From positions 1-14,022 of the forward strand of contig JAPKMW010000172.1 of assembly GCA_026645575.1 (NCBI GenBank): DNA of 14,022 nucleotides, read 5' to 3'. Under the pieces are notes generated by a model. The model did not search any database. It had not been told where the DNA came from and was given only the letters and a program-made list of their open reading frames with translations. The stretch comes from Caldilineaceae bacterium. Its GTDB lineage: Bacteria; Chloroflexota; Anaerolineae; Caldilineales; Caldilineaceae. Positions 4,857 to 11,288 of the stretch are shown piece by piece (position 1 is the stretch's first letter; each line of letters starts with the position of its first letter). A program made the position numbers and the translations under genes.

Positions 4857-6056
4857 ATGCCAGAATATCTTTCACCTGGGGTATATGTCGAGGAAATTCT
4901 TTCCGGCCAGGCGCCCATTGCCAGCGTCAGCACCGTGATCGCCGGCTTCCTTGGGAAAGTTGATGAGGCAGATATTGTCATGCCACCAAAACCAGGTCAA
5001 TTTGAAAAAGATGATGATGGGAACACTGTGTATGATGACAAGAACAAGCCAAAGCCTATTTTCTTTAAACTCACAGATGTAAATGAACCCCAACTTATTA
5101 CCAGTTGGGTCATGTTTAAGGAGAAATTTGGCGATTTCCAGCCGCAGAACAAGCGGCTTGCCCATGCAGTCTATGGTTTCTTCAACAATGGCGGCAATCG
5201 TTGTTGGGTTGTTCGTGTCGAGGATGACACAGATGAAGCCAAGATCAAACAAGGCTTGGAAGAGTTTGAAAAAATCGACGAGATTACCATGGTCATAGTG
5301 CCAGGTGCCCAGGCGAAGGCAATTCAGGAAGCCGTTATCGATCATTGCGAAAAGATGCAAGATCGCTTTGCCATCCTTGATGGGCAACAAGATCCTGATC
5401 AACTGAAAGTTGAAAACATTACAGGAAATGTGCGCACCAGCACTTATGCGGCTCTCTACTTTCCCTGGATCAAAGTATCTGATCCACTCACCAAAGGGGG
5501 AGAGGAGTTCATTCCTCCCAGCGGGCATCTTGCTGGTCTCTATGCCCGCACTGATACTAATCGTGGGGTGCATAAAGCGCCGGCGAATGACATTCTCCGT
5601 GGCGCGTTGGATGTCAAGCAACGACTCAGCAAGGCTGATCAGGATGGGTTGAACCCGCAAGGGGTCAACGTCATTCGCAAATTCAATGGTGATATCAGGG
5701 TTTGGGGAGCCCGCACCCTAGGCGGTGAAAAGAACACTGAATTCAAGTATATCAACGTGCGGCGGCTTTTCCTCATGTTACGCGAATCAATCGATGAGGG
5801 CACCCAGTGGGTGGTCTTTGAACCAAACGACAAGCAGTTGTGGGACAAGATCCGCCAAAACATTACCGCCTTTCTCACCAATATCTGGCGCAGCGGCGCG
5901 CTCTTTGGCGATACGCCGGAACAGGCTTTCTTTGTCAAATGTGACGAGGAACTCAACCCCAAGGAGGTGCGCGACCTGGGACAAGTCATCACCGAAATTG
6001 GCGTAGCGCCGGTCAAACCGGCCGAGTTTGTGATCTTCCGAATTCAACAGAAATAA
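4857..6056 (+). CDS. Contractile tail sheath protein 1
   Basis: Sheath subunit that polymerises round the inner tube and contracts to drive it into a target membrane (Pvc2/Afp2 family). It is 399 residues, within the usual range for simple eCIS sheaths. The N-terminus S-P-G-V-Y-V-E-E-I (6-14) is the donor-strand motif typical of sheaths. Further landmarks are F-F-N-N-G-G-N-R-C-W (108-117), R-F-A-I-L-D (170-175), P-P-S-G-H-L-A-G-L-Y-A-R-T-D (220-233), V-H-K-A-P-A-N (238-244), N-V-R-R-L (300-304) and the conserved C-terminal K-C-D-E-E-L-N-P…I-T-E-I-G…P-A-E-F segment (361-391). AAGGAG at 4843-4848 supports the ATG. A 125-bp gap precedes it, longer than other gaps in the tail block, so an internal promoter is possible though none is clear. 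Residues about 41-70 form a charged, AT-rich stretch. Confidence 0.97.
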   Translation: MPEYLSPGVYVEEILSGQAPIASVSTVIAGFLGKVDEADIVMPPKPGQFEKDDDGNTVYDDKNKPKPIFFKLTDVNEPQLITSWVMFKEKFGDFQPQNKRLAHAVYGFFNNGGNRCWVVRVEDDTDEAKIKQGLEEFEKIDEITMVIVPGAQAKAIQEAVIDHCEKMQDRFAILDGQQDPDQLKVENITGNVRTSTYAALYFPWIKVSDPLTKGGEEFIPPSGHLAGLYARTDTNRGVHKAPANDILRGALDVKQRLSKADQDGLNPQGVNVIRKFNGDIRVWGARTLGGEKNTEFKYINVRRLFLMLRESIDEGTQWVVFEPNDKQLWDKIRQNITAFLTNIWRSGALFGDTPEQAFFVKCDEELNPKEVRDLGQVITEIGVAPVKPAEFVIFRIQQK

Positions 6057-6090
6057 CTGGTTTTAGGAGGCAGAGGGAGTCAACGCGGCT

Positions 6091-7521
6091 ATGACCAATT
6101 ACGCAACACCGGGCGTCTATATCAAGAGTGTGGTGCATCCCATTCCAACCCAGGCCCTGCACACAGGCGTCCCCCTCTTTATCGGGCTGGTGAGCGCCGA
6201 TCGGCTTGCGCAAGCGCCTAGCCAGGATTTTGACACCACCCCCTTACCAGAAGGGGATGGTGCGCTGATGGTGGTACGTTCGAAGCGCATATTGATACAA
6301 AATCTAGCCAAGACGAACGCCTTTCAGGAACGTCGCCGTCGTGCCACGCCCGACTATTTTTTGGCAAGATTGCCGGATACCAACGCCGCAGTCACTGTTG
6401 AAGCCATCGATGCTGCGGTTGCGGAAGATCCCTGGTTACGCCACTACAGCCATACAGAACGCTTCAATCTCTGGCCCGATTTTGAAAAAGCCTATGGCGC
6501 CCTCTTCACCCGCGGCTACTTGGCGGCGGCTATCCAAGGCTTCTTTGCCAATAATGGACGCTTCTGCCGCTTGCAAATGGTCAGTTACCAACCGTGGCGC
6601 GCCACGCCGCTGGACGCGTTGACGGCGGGCCTCCGTGCGGTCGAAGCCGCCGACGACATTGATCTCATCTGTGCGCCGGATATACTGTGGCTTCATGCTC
6701 AGGGCGTGATTGACGCGGCGACTGTCTTTGCCATGCAAAAGGTCATCCTTGACCACTGTGACCGGCTGGGCAATCGCTTTGCCATTCTGGACGCGCTGCC
6801 CGACGTAACGACGGACGCGCTCAAGGCGCAGCGGCAAGCGTTGCGGTCAAAAAACGGGGCGCTCTACTACCCTTTTGTGGGTGTCAAGCCGCTCGCCGGC
6901 ACGCAACCAAGTACGGCGGAAACAGCCCAAACGCCATTGGTCTATGCACCCCCCTGCGGCCACATTGCCGGCGTCTATGCCCGCACCGATGAGCAGATCG
7001 GCGTCCATAAAGCGCCGGCCAATGCCCTGCTGCAAGGCGTGATCAGCTTAGCCGACGATGTCGATGACACGCAACAAGGCGAACTCAATCCCGTTAACAT
7101 CAATTGTCTGCGCGCCTTTCCCACCCGCGGCATTCGCATTTGGGGGGCGCGTACCCTGAGTGACGACGACGAATGGCGCTATGTCAATGTACGCCGGCTC
7201 ATGATCACGACAGCGCGCTGGGTCGAACGCAACATGATGGACGAAACTTTTGAACCGCATACGCCGGCGCTCCGGGCGCGCATCCGGCGCGAAGTAACCG
7301 TTTATCTCGATGGCCTCTTCCAAAGAGGGGCCTTACGCGGCAACACCGCACAGGAAGCTTATTATGTCAAGTGTGACGAAGAGAACAACCCTGACGCCGT
7401 GCGCGACGCCGGGATGATCATCACCGAGATTGGGCTGGCGGTAGCGGCCCCTGCCGAATTTATGGTGGTACGCCTCATTGCCGATGCCGCCGGCGTGACG
7501 ATTGTGGAAGCTGACAAGTAA
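6091..7521 (+). CDS. Contractile tail sheath protein 2
   Basis: Second sheath paralogue, 476 residues, like Pvc3/Pvc4 in PVC particles. It shares with sheath 1 the N-terminal T-P-G-V-Y motif (6-10), F-F-A-N-N-G-R-F-C (151-159), R-F-A-I-L-D (229-234), G-H-I-A-G-V-Y-A-R-T-D (290-300), V-H-K-A-P-A-N (305-311), N-V-R-R-L (366-370) and the C-terminal K-C-D-E-E-N-N-P…I-T-E-I-G segment (427-448). It differs by an extra stretch at about 40-125 that includes R-R-R-R (81-84), probably an outward-facing domain or loop. An AGGGAG at 6074-6079 is the likely ribosome binding site; the stronger AGGAGG at 6065-6070 is too far from the ATG. It starts 34 bp after sheath 1. It may form a specialised ring or mix with sheath 1; the sequence cannot tell which. 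DNA is more GC-rich than in sheath 1. Confidence 0.96.
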   Translation: MTNYATPGVYIKSVVHPIPTQALHTGVPLFIGLVSADRLAQAPSQDFDTTPLPEGDGALMVVRSKRILIQNLAKTNAFQERRRRATPDYFLARLPDTNAAVTVEAIDAAVAEDPWLRHYSHTERFNLWPDFEKAYGALFTRGYLAAAIQGFFANNGRFCRLQMVSYQPWRATPLDALTAGLRAVEAADDIDLICAPDILWLHAQGVIDAATVFAMQKVILDHCDRLGNRFAILDALPDVTTDALKAQRQALRSKNGALYYPFVGVKPLAGTQPSTAETAQTPLVYAPPCGHIAGVYARTDEQIGVHKAPANALLQGVISLADDVDDTQQGELNPVNINCLRAFPTRGIRIWGARTLSDDDEWRYVNVRRLMITTARWVERNMMDETFEPHTPALRARIRREVTVYLDGLFQRGALRGNTAQEAYYVKCDEENNPDAVRDAGMIITEIGLAVAAPAEFMVVRLIADAAGVTIVEADK

Positions 7522-7558: not shown

Positions 7559-8011
7559 ATGGCTATTGAAAAACGCGAGGGTAATGTGAAAGATCCCTAC
7601 CGCGGTTATCGTTTTCGGGTGGAAATTGATGGCATTCAACGCGCCGGTTTTCGCGAATGTTCTGGGTTGGATTCAACCCAAGACCCGATTGAATATCGTG
7701 AGGGGACGGAGATCATGACCGTGCGCAAACTACCCGGTCTCACCAAATATTCTAACATTTCGCTCAAATGGGGTGTCACCGACAATGACAAGGATATTTG
7801 GGACTGGCGCAAGCAGGCTGCCGACGGCAAATTGGATAAACGCAAAAATGTCGCCATCATCCTGATTGACCAGAGCGGCGCCGACGCGATCCGTTGGAAT
7901 ATCCGGGAAGCCTGGCCCACCAAGTGGACCGGCCCTTCCTTCAATGCCACAGGCAATGAGGTGGCGATTGATACGCTGGAAATTGCCCATGAGGGGGTGG
8001 AACGACAATGA
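7559..8011 (+). CDS. Inner tube protein 1 (T4 gp19-like)
   Basis: Main inner-tube subunit, related to Pvc1/Afp1 and phage T4 gp19. The 150-residue length is normal for the family. Hallmarks in order are P-Y-R-G-Y-R-F-R-V-E-I-D-G (13-25), A-G-F-R-E-C-S-G-L (29-37), I-E-Y-R-E-G (44-49), K-L-P-G-L-T-K-Y (57-64), W-G-V-T, W-D-W-R and a late W-T-G-P-S-F-N-A-x-G-N-E-V-A-I-D segment. The ATG at 7559 follows AAGGAG at 7544-7549; an upstream in-frame start would overlap the sheath 2 gene and add no family sequence. Its TGA overlaps the start of the next gene in an ATGA arrangement, so the two are translationally coupled. With the sheaths it forms the core contractile module. Confidence 0.96.
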   Translation: MAIEKREGNVKDPYRGYRFRVEIDGIQRAGFRECSGLDSTQDPIEYREGTEIMTVRKLPGLTKYSNISLKWGVTDNDKDIWDWRKQAADGKLDKRKNVAIILIDQSGADAIRWNIREAWPTKWTGPSFNATGNEVAIDTLEIAHEGVERQ

Positions 8012-8379
8012 GCATGTTACAAACGCAATTTGAATTTCTGCTGCCGCATGGCTATGTGGATAAAGAAGGCAATCTCCATCGCGCCGGCCAGATGCGCATG
8101 GCGACCGCCTATGACGAGATTGCGCCGCTCAAAGATCCGCGCGTCCAGAGCAACCCCGGCTACCATGTCATCATCTTGCTTTCGCAGGTGGTCACCAAAC
8201 TGGGGGAGGTGGAATTTATTAACCCCAAGGTGATCGAAAATCTCTTTGCCGGCGACATGGCCTATTTACAGGGCCTGTATCAACGCATCAACCACAACGG
8301 GCACAACCATCTGGCGGTGACCTGCCCCGGTTGTGGCGAACAGTTCGAGGTGGCGGTTGAAGCGGCGGGGGAATCATAG
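8008..8379 (+). CDS. Tail or baseplate-hub assembly chaperone-like protein
   Basis: A 123-residue protein conserved next to tube genes in eCIS loci. It resembles the T4-type baseplate hub or tail assembly chaperones, a resemblance judged from memory of the family. Features: L-P-H-G-Y-V-D (12-18), H-R-A-G-Q-M-R-M-A-T-A-Y-D-E-I (24-38), P-L-K-D-P-R-V (40-46), a hydrophobic helix with L-L-S-Q-V-V-T-K-L-G (57-66) and a C-terminal C-P-G-C knuckle (106-109). With only one CxxC pair it would not hold zinc alone unless it dimerises. It starts in a four-base ATGA overlap with tube 1. Five G at 8367-8371, just before its TAG at 8377-8379, and the hairpin beginning at the stop codon suggest that some ribosomes may shift to the -1 frame and make a longer product containing the next ORF. 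A role in helping tube or hub assembly is inferred from position. Confidence 0.82.
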   Translation: MSMLQTQFEFLLPHGYVDKEGNLHRAGQMRMATAYDEIAPLKDPRVQSNPGYHVIILLSQVVTKLGEVEFINPKVIENLFAGDMAYLQGLYQRINHNGHNHLAVTCPGCGEQFEVAVEAAGES

Positions 8380-8416
8380 GCTACCCCTTAGAGCGGTTGT
8401 CTGAGGAGGTAGCCTA
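8367..8416 (+). promoter_or_regulatory. Candidate -1 frameshift or coupling element (G-run plus hairpin)
   Basis: Five consecutive G occupy 8367-8371. After a five-base gap a hairpin begins exactly at the chaperone stop codon: 8377-8385 (TAGGCTACC) pairs perfectly with 8408-8416 (GGTAGCCTA), and 8386-8388 can continue pairing with 8404-8406 after one bulged A. In the chaperone reading frame the GGG codon at 8368-8370 could re-pair with GGG at 8367-8369, moving ribosomes into the frame of the DUF6760-like ORF. The second codon of the slip window re-pairs poorly, so it is not an ideal heptamer. The hairpin also hides an AGGAGG at 8404-8409. Function is inferred. Confidence 0.5.
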
Positions 8417-8558
8417 CATCGCCTATCATTTCCACTGGCCCTATGATCAAGTCATGCAACTGGAACATCGCGAACGCCAACAGTGGGTGGGCGAAATCGC
8501 CAAAATCAACCAACGCATCAATGCCGAAAGCGAAGCGGAGAACGGACGATGGCAGTAG
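8376..8558 (+). CDS. DUF6760-like small eCIS protein, non-canonical start
   Basis: Small protein of about 60 residues with a body typical of the DUF6760 family of eCIS and phage-tail loci: Y-P-L-E-R-L-S-E-E-V-A-Y-I-A-Y-H-F-H-W, then L-E-H-R-E-R-Q-Q-W-V-G-E-I-A-K-I-N. Its molecular function is unknown. The frame is open from 8361 (after a TGA at 8358-8360) to TAG at 8556-8558. No ATG, GTG or TTG lies ahead of the conserved segment; the first is TTG at 8397, which would cut off Y-P-L-E-R. I set the start at ATA (8376-8378), which overlaps the chaperone TAG in an ATAG arrangement. The other explanation is a -1 frameshift from the chaperone gene, giving a fusion of about 183 residues. It overlaps the tube 2 start by ten bases. 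That the ORF is real is well supported; the start is not. Confidence 0.7.
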   Translation: MGYPLERLSEEVAYIAYHFHWPYDQVMQLEHRERQQWVGEIAKINQRINAESEAENGRWQ

Positions 8559-8980
8559 ATCGGGTCGATCCCTATCTGGGATTCAATTTCGTGGTGGAGA
8601 TCAAAGGGATGCAAGTGGCCGGTTTTACCGAGGTCTCCGGTCTACAGGTCGAGATCGAGGTGCAGGATTACCGGGAAGGCGGGCTAAACACCCATCTTCA
8701 CCGGCTGCCCGGCCCGGCGCGCTATCCCAACAACTTAGTGCTACGGCGCGGTCTGGCCAGCGATGACCTGTGGCGCTGGCATCAAGCAGTGGTGAAGGGG
8801 CAGATCGAGCGGCGCAACGGCTCGGTCATCCTGCGCGATAGCGGCGGCCAGGAGCGGTGGCGGTGGAATTTCGAGCAAGCCTATCCGGTACGCTGGAGTG
8901 GGCCGGAGTTGCGGGCGCAGACCGCCGAAGTGGCGGTTGAGGTGGTTGAATTAGTCCACCGTGGGATTAGCAAAGAATAG
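8549..8980 (+). CDS. Inner tube protein 2 / tube initiator (Pvc5-like, gp19 family)
   Basis: Second gp19-type tube protein, 143 residues, likely the ring that joins the main tube to the hub, as Pvc5/Afp5 do. It shares with tube 1 the order P-Y-L-G-F-N-F-V-V-E-I-K-G, A-G-F-T-E-V-S-G-L, Y-R-E-G-G, L-P-G-P-A-R-Y and the late Y-P-V-R-W-S-G-P-E-L…V-E-V-V-E-L-V-H-R-G end. It differs from the main tube in the R-R-G-L-A-S-D-D-L-W-R-W-H segment. The ATG at 8549 is preceded by GGAG at 8537-8540; the start lies inside the last codons of the DUF6760-like ORF. A longer upstream reading adds only sequence from the neighbour's shadow frame. Its position just before the Pvc6-slot and LysM genes fits an initiator or adaptor role. 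Confidence 0.93.
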   Translation: MAVDRVDPYLGFNFVVEIKGMQVAGFTEVSGLQVEIEVQDYREGGLNTHLHRLPGPARYPNNLVLRRGLASDDLWRWHQAVVKGQIERRNGSVILRDSGGQERWRWNFEQAYPVRWSGPELRAQTAEVAVEVVELVHRGISKE

Positions 8981-9026: not shown

Positions 9027-11288
9027 ATGGCTGGGCAAGACCAGAACGATCGCCTAGAAGCAGCGCTTGTGCAGCGCTACCATACACCAGATCACTCAGG
9101 CTCAGGACAGGCGGGGCGGATAGCGCGTCGCTTTACGCAAACGCGACTACCTTTGCTCGCCCGGTTGCAGCGACTCACCCTGAATCGCACAACGATCGCC
9201 GGCGCCTGGGTAGCAATGCCATACCGCTTGTACACCCTTGCCCCAAGCGCCCGCTCACTTACGACGTCATCGGCATTGACGCCAACCTACGGGACAGGCG
9301 GTAGTCGGTTGCCAGCGCTGGGGGCGTCATTTGGCTTAATGCCCACGCCGGGGTCATTGCTACGCGCAACAACTCAACCAGCGCCTGGCACAGCAAGGCT
9401 TATGGCGCCCGCAACGTCGCAACCGGCAGCCGCGATCCAGCGACAGGCCGGCAGTCCGCCGGCGGTTTCCGGGCCGCCTTCCGTTGGCGTCCGGCAGCAG
9501 ATCCAACGTGCGTCCGCTGGCGAGCAACCTGATGATCAACAGGAGGAAACGGTAAACCGAAGCAACGTCCTCATGCGCGCCTTCACGCCTGTTATCACCG
9601 CCGCAGCAACCCATGCGGGCAACCGGCCGATGCAAGTGACAGCGCCACTGACCACAGCGTTGCATAACAATGCAACCACGGCGGCAAGCGGCGCACCCTC
9701 AATGGTTATGCCGACAGTCACGATAGCCCGTCGGGTGATTGCCGCCCCCGACGCGATGCCCCCTGTTATGCCGAGCGTCGGGGCGCCTTTTAGCAGCGTG
9801 ACACCAACGCGGCCAAGCGTGTCCAAAGCAGACCACGCGATAGCAGCGCCCATCGGATCATTACAGCACCAACCAGCGCACAGTCCGGCCCGGCCAATAG
9901 CGCCAAAAGCGGTGACAGCGCCCCCGGCGACCACACACGCAAAGCGTGCCCCCTTGTCGCCAGCGGTGCAAAGGGTGGCAACAACAACGGCGCTTCAGCC
10001 ATCAACGCAGCCGACTGCTCATGCCGCCTTGGTTCTGCGGCATACAATAAGCGGGGTGGCGCCTACGGCAGCAGCGACAGGAACGACCGCAGGAAACCGG
10101 TCAACCAGTGCTGTCCCTAGTGTACAAAGAGCTACAGCGCCGATGACAATGCCTGGCAGACAGACGCCCCTGTCGATGAACCGACAGCCGGCCGCCCCTG
10201 GTTTGCGGATGAACATGCAGACGATGGCGCTACCGCCTCGTCACCTCACCCTACCGGCGGCGGCACAGCGCGCCATTGCGTTGGGACAAACAGTCACGCA
10301 CCAACCGACGAGTTCTCCGCACCAACGCAACGTGCCGGCAATGCTCGATGGCGGCAGAGTGGCGCCACTGGCTGTGGCAGCGGCGCCAAGCAAACCGATC
10401 ATAGCGGCCCCAGTGGCGCCGTCACCGCACCAGCCCCCAATACCCCCAAGCAGCGGCGGCACGGCGACTTCTGTGCAACGCATAACGGCTGCCGGCAGTA
10501 TGCAACCGACGGTGGCGCAGCGCGCCGTTACATCAGGGCAACCAGTCACGCACCAGCCGACGAGTTCTCCGCACCAACGCAACGTGCCGGCAATGCTGGG
10601 CGGCGGCGCGGCGGGCGAAGCAGTGGGCGGGGTGTCACCACTGGTTGTGGCAGCGGCGCCGAGCAGGCTGATAATCACTGGCGCGGCGCCATCACCGTCT
10701 CAGCCCGCCATCACCCCGATCAGAGGCATTACAACAACTGCGGTGCAACGGATTACGGTTGATGGCAGCACGCCGCTGTCACCGCCGCTGAGACCGGATC
10801 GCCTACCGGTGGTCGCGCCGGCGCCGTGGCGTCCGCTGGCAGGTGCAATGGCAGTCGGTGCAACATCCTTGAGCCAACCAACAGCCTTCCCATCCTTGCC
10901 CATGCCGCCGGCCCAAGCCATGAACAGTTGGGGAGTGTCGGGGAATAGCCAGGCGCCTAACACCAACAATGGCATGACAGCCTTTCCCGCTGTTCAACGC
11001 AGCGGTAAGGGTGGCTATGGCGCCAATAGTACGACCAATACCGTCTGGCTTACCGCAGGGGCGCGGGGAGCAGTCCAACGCGCCGACCTGATAACGGCTG
11101 ACCGAGCGGCGGCGCCTACCGGGACAAGCGCCCCTGCCCCAGGCTTTGCTCCTACGGCAACAATGACGCCGGACGCGCAGTGGAATAACAGCAGCCATCA
11201 GACGCCGGATTTGGAACGGTTGGCGGATGAAGTCTATGCCATTTTGGAACGCCGTATCACCATCGAACGGGAAAGTCTGGGCTTATAG
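9027..11288 (+). CDS. Large Pro/Ala/Thr-rich disordered protein in the Pvc6 position
   Basis: A 753-residue protein between the tube initiator and the LysM hub gene, where PVC and Afp loci have the short Pvc6/Afp6. Most of it (about 60-720) is low complexity, dominated by Pro, Ala, Thr and Ser, and probably disordered. Residues 1-55 are basic and hydrophilic with L-V-Q-R and L-Q-R. A short tripeptide [V/I/L/A/H]-Q-R recurs at least fourteen times along the chain (for example 137, 159, 314, 366, 483, 573, 656 and 683). A segment of about 80 residues is duplicated (411-490 and 495-580). The last 28 residues are different in character: L-E-R-L-A-D-E-V-Y-A-I-L-E-R-R-I-T-I-E-R-E-S, an amphipathic charged helix that resembles a conserved eCIS C-terminal motif (from memory). 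There is no signal or membrane segment. Frame consistency and the clean end support a real gene. Function is unknown: docking, linker or cargo-loading roles are possible. Confidence 0.78.
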   Translation: MAGQDQNDRLEAALVQRYHTPDHSGSGQAGRIARRFTQTRLPLLARLQRLTLNRTTIAGAWVAMPYRLYTLAPSARSLTTSSALTPTYGTGGSRLPALGASFGLMPTPGSLLRATTQPAPGTARLMAPATSQPAAAIQRQAGSPPAVSGPPSVGVRQQIQRASAGEQPDDQQEETVNRSNVLMRAFTPVITAAATHAGNRPMQVTAPLTTALHNNATTAASGAPSMVMPTVTIARRVIAAPDAMPPVMPSVGAPFSSVTPTRPSVSKADHAIAAPIGSLQHQPAHSPARPIAPKAVTAPPATTHAKRAPLSPAVQRVATTTALQPSTQPTAHAALVLRHTISGVAPTAAATGTTAGNRSTSAVPSVQRATAPMTMPGRQTPLSMNRQPAAPGLRMNMQTMALPPRHLTLPAAAQRAIALGQTVTHQPTSSPHQRNVPAMLDGGRVAPLAVAAAPSKPIIAAPVAPSPHQPPIPPSSGGTATSVQRITAAGSMQPTVAQRAVTSGQPVTHQPTSSPHQRNVPAMLGGGAAGEAVGGVSPLVVAAAPSRLIITGAAPSPSQPAITPIRGITTTAVQRITVDGSTPLSPPLRPDRLPVVAPAPWRPLAGAMAVGATSLSQPTAFPSLPMPPAQAMNSWGVSGNSQAPNTNNGMTAFPAVQRSGKGGYGANSTTNTVWLTAGARGAVQRADLITADRAAAPTGTSAPAPGFAPTATMTPDAQWNNSSHQTPDLERLADEVYAILERRITIERESLGL
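10257..10496 (+). repeat. Internal direct repeat, copy 1
   Basis: Encodes residues 411-490 of the large disordered protein. It matches copy 2 at 10509-10766. The core 10291-10345 differs from 10543-10597 at one of 55 bases, while the rest is more diverged. The shared protein core is T-H-Q-P-T-S-S-P-H-Q-R-N-V-P-A-M-L, followed by A-A-A-P-S, a Pro-rich stretch and V-Q-R-I-T. Confidence 0.9.
10509..10766 (+). repeat. Internal direct repeat, copy 2
   Basis: Encodes residues 495-580 of the large disordered protein. It is the second copy of the segment at 10257-10496 and carries a Gly/Ala-rich insertion of about ten residues after the shared core. The near-identical core suggests recent duplication or gene conversion within the gene. 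Confidence 0.9.

Follow-up and report, generated by a model that had tools for sequence, protein, structure and literature searches.

Tail chaperone frameshifts are already known from phages. In chaperones of the lambda G/GT type, as they are presented in the consulted part of PMC5009743, one gene gives two products through a low-level -1 shift near its end, the extension made by the frameshift is said to bind the tube protein, and the spacers in front of the stimulators of -1 frameshifting measure 5-9 nt. The shift site of lambda G/GT is G_GGA_AAG. In phage P2 a short chaperone-like protein (E) receives a -1 extension (GpE, PF06528), and the product E+E' is annotated as a -1 frameshift in the phage P2 record. 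The heptamer T_TTT_TTG was found in P2 and, in phase and leading into E', in all eight further P2-type phage loci scanned as a positive control. The next gene in P2 is that of the tape measure, T.

The window, by which we mean the whole analysed stretch of 14,022 nucleotides from a Caldilineaceae bacterium, belongs not to a phage but to an eCIS, an injection machine. Its chaperone-like gene and its DUF6760 reading frame are very probably one gene read two ways, by a programmed -1 frameshift of the lambda G/GT and P2 E/E' kind. Such a reading had been proposed in the initial annotation, and the alignment of homologous loci, in which the G-run, the missing start codon and the hairpin were compared, speaks strongly in its favour. 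It had also been noted as not known to be described for eCIS, the extracellular contractile injection systems, and no eCIS frameshift was found in the open-access literature searched.

The comparison of loci establishes the heptamer, spacer, stem, frame relation and missing start and the conservation of these parts. From this layout we infer slippage, its efficiency and the role of DUF6760 as follows. Most ribosomes would stop at the chaperone TAG and release the short chaperone, while a fraction of them, held up by the downstream stem-loop, would slip back one base on G_GGG_GAA and continue in the -1 frame, giving a protein of about 183 aa in which DUF6760 forms the C-terminal domain of the chaperone. 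On the analogy of lambda G/GT and P2 E/E', the short form would coat an assembly partner, the long form would use its DUF6760 tail to recruit tube subunits, and the ratio of short to long form would set tube assembly.

Organization of the locus

According to a Pfam profile search of its open reading frames, the window holds part of an eCIS cluster comprising two sheath genes, a tube gene, the chaperone-like gene, DUF6760, a second tube gene, a CIS_tube/LysM protein and a protein with a Phage_base_V domain. The features around the junction are listed in Table 1. The second tube gene scored above the cut-off of TIGR02241 and below that of NF053770. It occupies the place that T has in P2; a tape-measure gene, which is a criterion for phage tail chaperones, does not lie directly downstream in the window. 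Elsewhere in the cluster, two tandem sheath genes of unequal length (399 and 476 aa) were noticed at positions 4857-7521, and a 753-aa Ala/Pro/Thr-rich ORF without a Pfam match at 9027-11288.

The chaperone frame and the -1 frame are both open only from 8361 to 8379. This overlap, the placement of DUF6760 in the -1 frame, the run GGGGG at 8367-8371 and a perfect 9-bp stem (8377-8385 with 8408-8416) had all been given in the initial annotation and proved correct to the base.

Table 1. Positions of the features at the chaperone-DUF6760 junction in the window
Feature	Position	Strand	Evidence
Tail tube gene (gp19 family), upstream of the chaperone	7559-8011	+	PF06841, 161 bits
Tail assembly chaperone-like gene, 0 frame, 123 aa, CPxC zinc-ribbon-like end; product of normal termination	8008-8379	+	ORF; phrog_508
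-1 frame ORF with DUF6760 (PF20546), without ATG/GTG/TTG ahead of the core	8361-8558	+	56.3 bits, cut-off 27
Proposed shift site G_GGG_GAA	8367-8373	+	in-phase G_GGG_G in 130/158 loci, 16.6 expected
Spacer of 6 nt before the conserved stem core; 3 nt precede the full-length stem of the window locus	8374-8379	+	
Chaperone stop TAG, within the outer stem	8377-8379	+	
Stem 5' arm; conserved core GCTACC 8380-8385	8377-8392	+	fold pair list, pair counts
Stem 3' arm, A8407 bulged; conserved core GGTAGC 8408-8413	8400-8416	+	fold pair list; Val codon GTA 74/75
ATA codon overlapping the stop, rival non-canonical start	8376-8378	+	no start codon conserved at that place
Second tube gene (gp19 family, CIS5/TIGR02241-like), start inside the DUF6760 ORF	8549-8980	+	PF06841, 128.8 bits

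Loci compared

A first set of 88 loci consisted of the best 80 of 559 genome matches and eight viral contigs. The titles of the genome records in it name Myxococcaceae, Anaerolineaceae, SAR324, many cyanobacteria, Massilia, Caballeronia, Nitrosospira, Accumulibacter, Acidobacteria, Gemmatimonadetes, Nitrospirota, Rubrobacter, Nocardiopsis, Flavonifractor, Methanoperedens and ANME-2. A second set, likewise of 88 loci (L089-L176), was obtained from family searches centred on four first-set genomes, in which DUF6760 was found in 38/400, 23/396, 16/391 and 17/294 genomes (94 matching genomes among 1481 drawn); for the 38/400 search the loci came from 30 of the 38 matches, and group membership throughout the second set was deduced only from the named locus at the centre of each search. 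Six loci without a DUF6760 match (L066, L087, L088, L141, L157, L176) and two without a chaperone adjoining DUF6760 (L134, L159) were dropped before counting. The 169 remaining loci, window included, were reduced to 158 non-redundant ones by removing regions more than 95% identical.

Reading frame and proposed shift heptamer

DUF6760 follows the chaperone in 85 of the 88 first-set loci (best 80 of 559 plus the eight viral contigs) and lies in the -1 frame in all 85. Both genes are present in 83 of the 88 second-set loci, with DUF6760 in the -1 frame in 81, and over the non-redundant loci, window included, this relation is found in 156 of 158. The exceptions are L137 and L156. Both have DUF6760 in frame 0; in L137 it has a GTG of its own, and L156 has no start and is perhaps degenerate. 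The -1 phase alone is little proof, because ATGA overlaps yield the same phase.

An in-phase G_GGG_G occurs in the last 15 chaperone codons of 130/158 loci, against 16.6 (sd 3.7) expected when the amino acids are kept and synonymous codons are redrawn at each locus's own usage in all 158 loci. The other loci were assigned to G_GGA_AAN (8), T_TTT_TTN (4), A_AAT_TTN (4), C_CCT_TTN (2) or no heptamer (10), so that 148 of 158 have some listed class, the two C_CCT_TTN loci and L166 (which has starts of its own and a site 33 nt ahead of the stop) being doubtful as shift sites. Some listed class lies in the last nine codons of 144/158 chaperones; among nine-codon windows from the remainder of these genes, 106 of 2740 contain one (3.9%). 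In the first set with the window (best 80 of 559 and eight viral) 82/86 loci have the in-phase G_GGG_G, as GGGGGAG (45), GGGGGAA (27), GGGGGGA (5) or GGGGGGG (5); among the four others L008 has G_GGA_AAA, and L071, L078 and L079 have T_TTT_TTG. If GGGGG were kept for the Gly-Gly that it encodes in the -1 frame, this would itself require translation of that frame there.

In the window heptamer the P-site half re-pairs perfectly and the A-site half imperfectly. It can be reasoned that the A-site Glu codon re-pairs with GGA only via G-U at the middle position, and therefore P-site slippage alone may dominate. This weakness had been pointed out from the window (GAA to GGA); it is real but general, since GAR follows the G-run in 100 of 130 G-run loci (54 GGGGGAA, 46 GGGGGAG).

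While P2 has T_TTT_TTG, most of the examined eCIS loci have G_GGG_G; the P2 heptamer is shared by L071 and the clostridial eCIS loci L078 and L079. In these three loci the -1 frame stays open, with conserved-looking residues, for about 150 nt between T_TTT_TTG and DUF6760, which suggests, judging from sequence, a longer linker in the fusion, though an ATG or GTG also stands just before the core. The usual eCIS motif differs from that of lambda G/GT, to which the archaeal loci come closest: the archaeal-phylum loci L160-L165 have G_GGA_AAT/C, and GGGAAAC was seen by eye upstream of DUF6760 in a Haloferax larsenii plasmid (L181). These sites are like those reported, in the part of the literature consulted, for haloarchaeal tailed viruses (HCTV-1, -2, -5), which are viruses and not eCIS.

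Two results near the heptamer were set aside. Gly encoded as GGG in 79/79 loci and a preceding codon ending in G in 68/68 is a circular result, the loci having been chosen for in-phase GGGGG; the synonymous-codon test on all 158 loci takes its place. GAGG, GGAG or AGGA was found 8-20 nt upstream of the heptamer in 60/82 G-run loci against 12.9% of control windows; an upstream Shine-Dalgarno-like stimulator is not claimed, the signal being confounded by conserved Phe-Glu-Val-Glu codons.

Start codons and stop position

The absence of ATG, GTG and TTG ahead of the DUF6760 core, stated earlier for the window, was confirmed: the sole such codon ahead of or near the core in the -1 frame is TTG 8397, which lies inside the conserved core. 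In 94/130 G-run loci none of these three codons stands between the heptamer and the Tyr codon of the core, and 39/130 have none of ATG, GTG, TTG, CTG, ATT, ATC and ATA before the core; the junctions GTA GTT TGC and GTC TGG CGC are examples from these 39. In the 36 loci which do have an ATG, GTG or TTG between site and core, 33 of these starts overlap a TGA stop (NTGA); they may be a by-product of that stop, and such loci could use both routes. The chaperone stop follows the heptamer after 0 codons in 69 of the G-run loci, after 1 in 51 and after 2-12 in 10. Of the 127 loci that have a Tyr codon at this point, 117 place it 8 nt from the end of the heptamer, and the distance from heptamer to stem hardly varies although the stop sits 0-12 codons past the heptamer.

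These counts bear on translational coupling, in which ribosomes would stop at TAG and restart on the ATA in the overlap (or on ATC), GGGGGA serving as Shine-Dalgarno sequence, so that DUF6760 would be made as a separate small protein. The ATAG overlap and the G-rich run just upstream of it in the window would suit such a restart, as would relatives with an apparent Met at this place: among the 37 database relatives in A1, 22 have Met or Val as first residue, no more than two residues ahead of YP, though a gene caller reports an ORF only where it has a start. Coupling is nevertheless quite unlikely in view of the loci with none of the seven start codons and of the ten in which the stop lies 2-12 codons past the heptamer. 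It leaves unexplained why the phase of the G-run to the chaperone codons is kept far above synonymous expectation, why the run is swapped for G_GGA_AAN, T_TTT_TTN or A_AAT_TTN, and why the arms of the stem are fixed at the nucleotide level and pair. Smaller groups of loci have classical heptamers, or a different stem, at the same position; a frameshift signal would be expected to vary in this way, whereas a Shine-Dalgarno sequence with an ATA start hardly accounts for it.

An ordinary start is present in 8/10 loci without a heptamer against 36/130 G_GGG_G loci (Fisher p 0.0015, with kinship not removed and with the 18 loci of other heptamer classes, 10 of them with a start, left out), and therefore frameshifting is not indispensable for every DUF6760. 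Within the heptamer-less group L132, L135, L136, L139 and L140 use an ATGA start for DUF6760, a use which counts in favour of coupling. In these five loci the frameshift was apparently replaced by ordinary coupling, or the reverse.

The lack of a start could also be put down to sequence error or decay, the window ATG having been lost (to ATA or ATC) and DUF6760 not being made, or a base having been miscalled. Judged from proteins, the closest relatives P0001 and P0121 have an apparent ATG where the window has ATA, and a single base lies between the window TCATAG and the TCATGG deduced for the closest relative. The start-less layout recurs, however, in the 94 G-run loci mentioned above, and the DUF6760 core of the window is intact, far over its curated Pfam cut-off, which makes this explanation most improbable. 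A plain ATG start lost by one base had been the first reading, made from proteins only (P0121/P0001), and was dropped on the DNA of the 88 loci; the frameshift was taken up instead because ATG, GTG and TTG are absent within 24 nt of the site in 67 of the 82 first-set G-run loci, window included. It had been suggested in advance that close relatives with an ATG before YPLER and no G-run or stem would count against frameshifting. This was found in part: Met stands directly before GYPL in the proteins P0121, P0124 and P0125. In P0127, a close relative (90% identical), DUF6760 is called only from LSEEV, inside the core.

Downstream stem-loop

The perfect 9-bp stem is the base of a 16-bp stem in the window, in which 8377-8392 pair with 8400-8416 around a loop at 8393-8399. 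Its folding energy is -25.9 kcal/mol (z -4.79), and none of 200 shuffles was as stable. Stability differs among the loci: z lies between -0.4 and -1.3 in 4 of 8 folded sequences (L004, L014, L073, L085), and the 52-nt stretch following the G-run ranks within the most stable 5% of same-locus windows in 79/130 loci (median percentile 0.03) and outside them in 51/130.

The codon test of the stem arms outweighs covariation, because the stem core hardly varies. It was made on 79 non-redundant first-set G-run loci, the expected numbers being based on the codon usage of the locus concerned. The codon ahead of Tyr specifies Gly, Cys, Arg or Ser in 78 loci and is NGC in all 78 (27.7 expected), Tyr itself is TAC in 78/79 (35.5 expected), the second Glu of EEVA is GAG in 74/79 (33.7 expected) and the Val codon is GTA in 74/75 (12.3 expected), including 22/24 loci with a GC content of at least 60%, where GTA is rare. 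The bases fixed in this way are the arms GCTACC and GGTAGC, both of which are exact in 74/82 loci.

Pairing was counted in alignment A3 of 82 G-run loci, where 81.7% of cells pair; shifting the partner by 1-3 columns lowers this to 27-53%. Double changes are seen in 7/13 pairs against 3.6 in shuffles, and the covariation score is 0.125 against 0.082 +/- 0.006 in shuffles, of which 0/500 were as high. In L001 a C-G to U-A change in the core keeps the stem, alongside Val to Ile. The pair just outside the core is, in 78 distinct rows, G-C in 31, C-G in 10, U-A in 7, A-U in 6, G-U in 2 and unpaired in 22; by another count it is formed in 58/82 loci, with 36.7 expected if the two positions were independent. 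Further pair types in A3 are not above shuffles (155/500 as high), sliding by +2 is not separated from the register (36 double-change cells vs 34 in register; covariation 0.108 vs 0.125), and RNAalifold predicted only eight pairs, with a covariation term of only -0.04.

A different stem, GACGTACGCGA with TCGCGTACGT, is found in 24 loci (A4: L085, 11 loci of the 38/400 search and 12 of the 23/396 search), with 93.2% of cells pairing against 11-45% when slid. Apart from L119, which was added by hand, the loci of A4 were picked because CGTAC or CGTAT follows the stop, and the evenness of the 5' arm is thus partly by choice, the pairing of the 3' arm not. The number of A4 pairs with double changes was reached by 37/500 shuffles. 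L126, which belongs to A4, has no heptamer.

The homopolymer run could also act on the RNA polymerase, which would add a G in it so that some mRNAs are read straight into DUF6760. Such transcriptional slippage would give a nearly identical product, it would account for conservation of the run, and the in-frame fusions P0241 and P0244, as deduced from the proteins, look like longer runs. Five G are short for polymerase slippage, and the A_AAT_TTN and G_GGA_AAN sites are without a long run; this mechanism is hardly to be expected here. The pairing stem placed 6 nt downstream, at its conserved core, fits a ribosomal stimulator and falls inside the criterion of about 5-9 nt for -1 frameshift signals, as given in the consulted part of PMC5009743.

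Chaperone and DUF6760 as protein families

The profile phrog_508 ("tail assembly chaperone") was matched by 26/26 aligned chaperone relatives (best E 8.7e-08, window 0.00036), and Pfam TAC_7 by only 3/26 (best 0.047). The chaperone model is of modest confidence (pLDDT 66); its best viral fold matches are baseplate and T4-like baseplate hub assembly proteins, the HK97 tail assembly chaperone 2ob9 appearing only at rank 3 (E 1.3). By tblastn the chaperone was found in 4 of 50,697 phage records, all of Streptomyces phages, and in 41 of 72,556 plasmid records.

DUF6760 weakly resembles the P2 extension. A weak match to Phage_P2_GpE PF06528 was obtained for 13/38 DUF6760 members (best 0.0017), the window sequence reaching 0.1 at 12.6 bits, below the cut-off of 23. 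Profile comparison by hhalign with ten GpE sequences gave E 8e-06 over 62 columns (probability 65%, identity 16%), and the spacing from FHW to the next W is the same in both families. The fold search with DUF6760 gave no match at E <= 0.001, and the search of solved structures by sequence nothing useful. The top fold match for both proteins came from Myoviridae sp. ctgXL3 (chaperone E 2.4e-06; DUF6760 E 0.2, weak; BFVD A0A8S5QRT9 and A0A8S5QR30), a virus which, going by these models, perhaps carries the chaperone-DUF6760 pair.

In-frame chaperone-DUF6760 fusion proteins made up two of the five matches of a fusion search (P0241, P0244), the other three not being chaperone fusions. Their sequences suggest natural fusions or errors in the length of the G-run.

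Implications

It seems likely that DUF6760 does not, as a rule, constitute an independent gene. It would instead be a recruiting domain, putatively homologous to P2 E', that frameshifting adds to the eCIS tube chaperone. Its -1 signal, in most cases G_GGG_GAR with a nucleotide-fixed stem, would then have survived the change from phage tail to injection machine throughout bacterial and archaeal phyla, motif and stem being replaced piecewise and the layout staying constant.

The GpE domain is annotated as a separate gene in five P2-type phage loci and as a joined gene in one, and DUF6760 is treated by eCIS annotation in much the same way: in five annotated plasmid stretches it is a separate gene in four (in L179 starting inside the core) and is not listed in L180, the plasmid gene table being incomplete. 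If the frameshift is true, DUF6760, a family of unknown function, gains a role and the annotation of eCIS clusters needs revision. Particles expressed from the genes as annotated could lack an assembly factor or have it out of balance. The motif G_GGG_GAR, seen in the first set from cyanobacteria to Methanoperedens and ANME-2 archaea, would moreover offer a natural test of slippage on a Gly-Glu codon pair.
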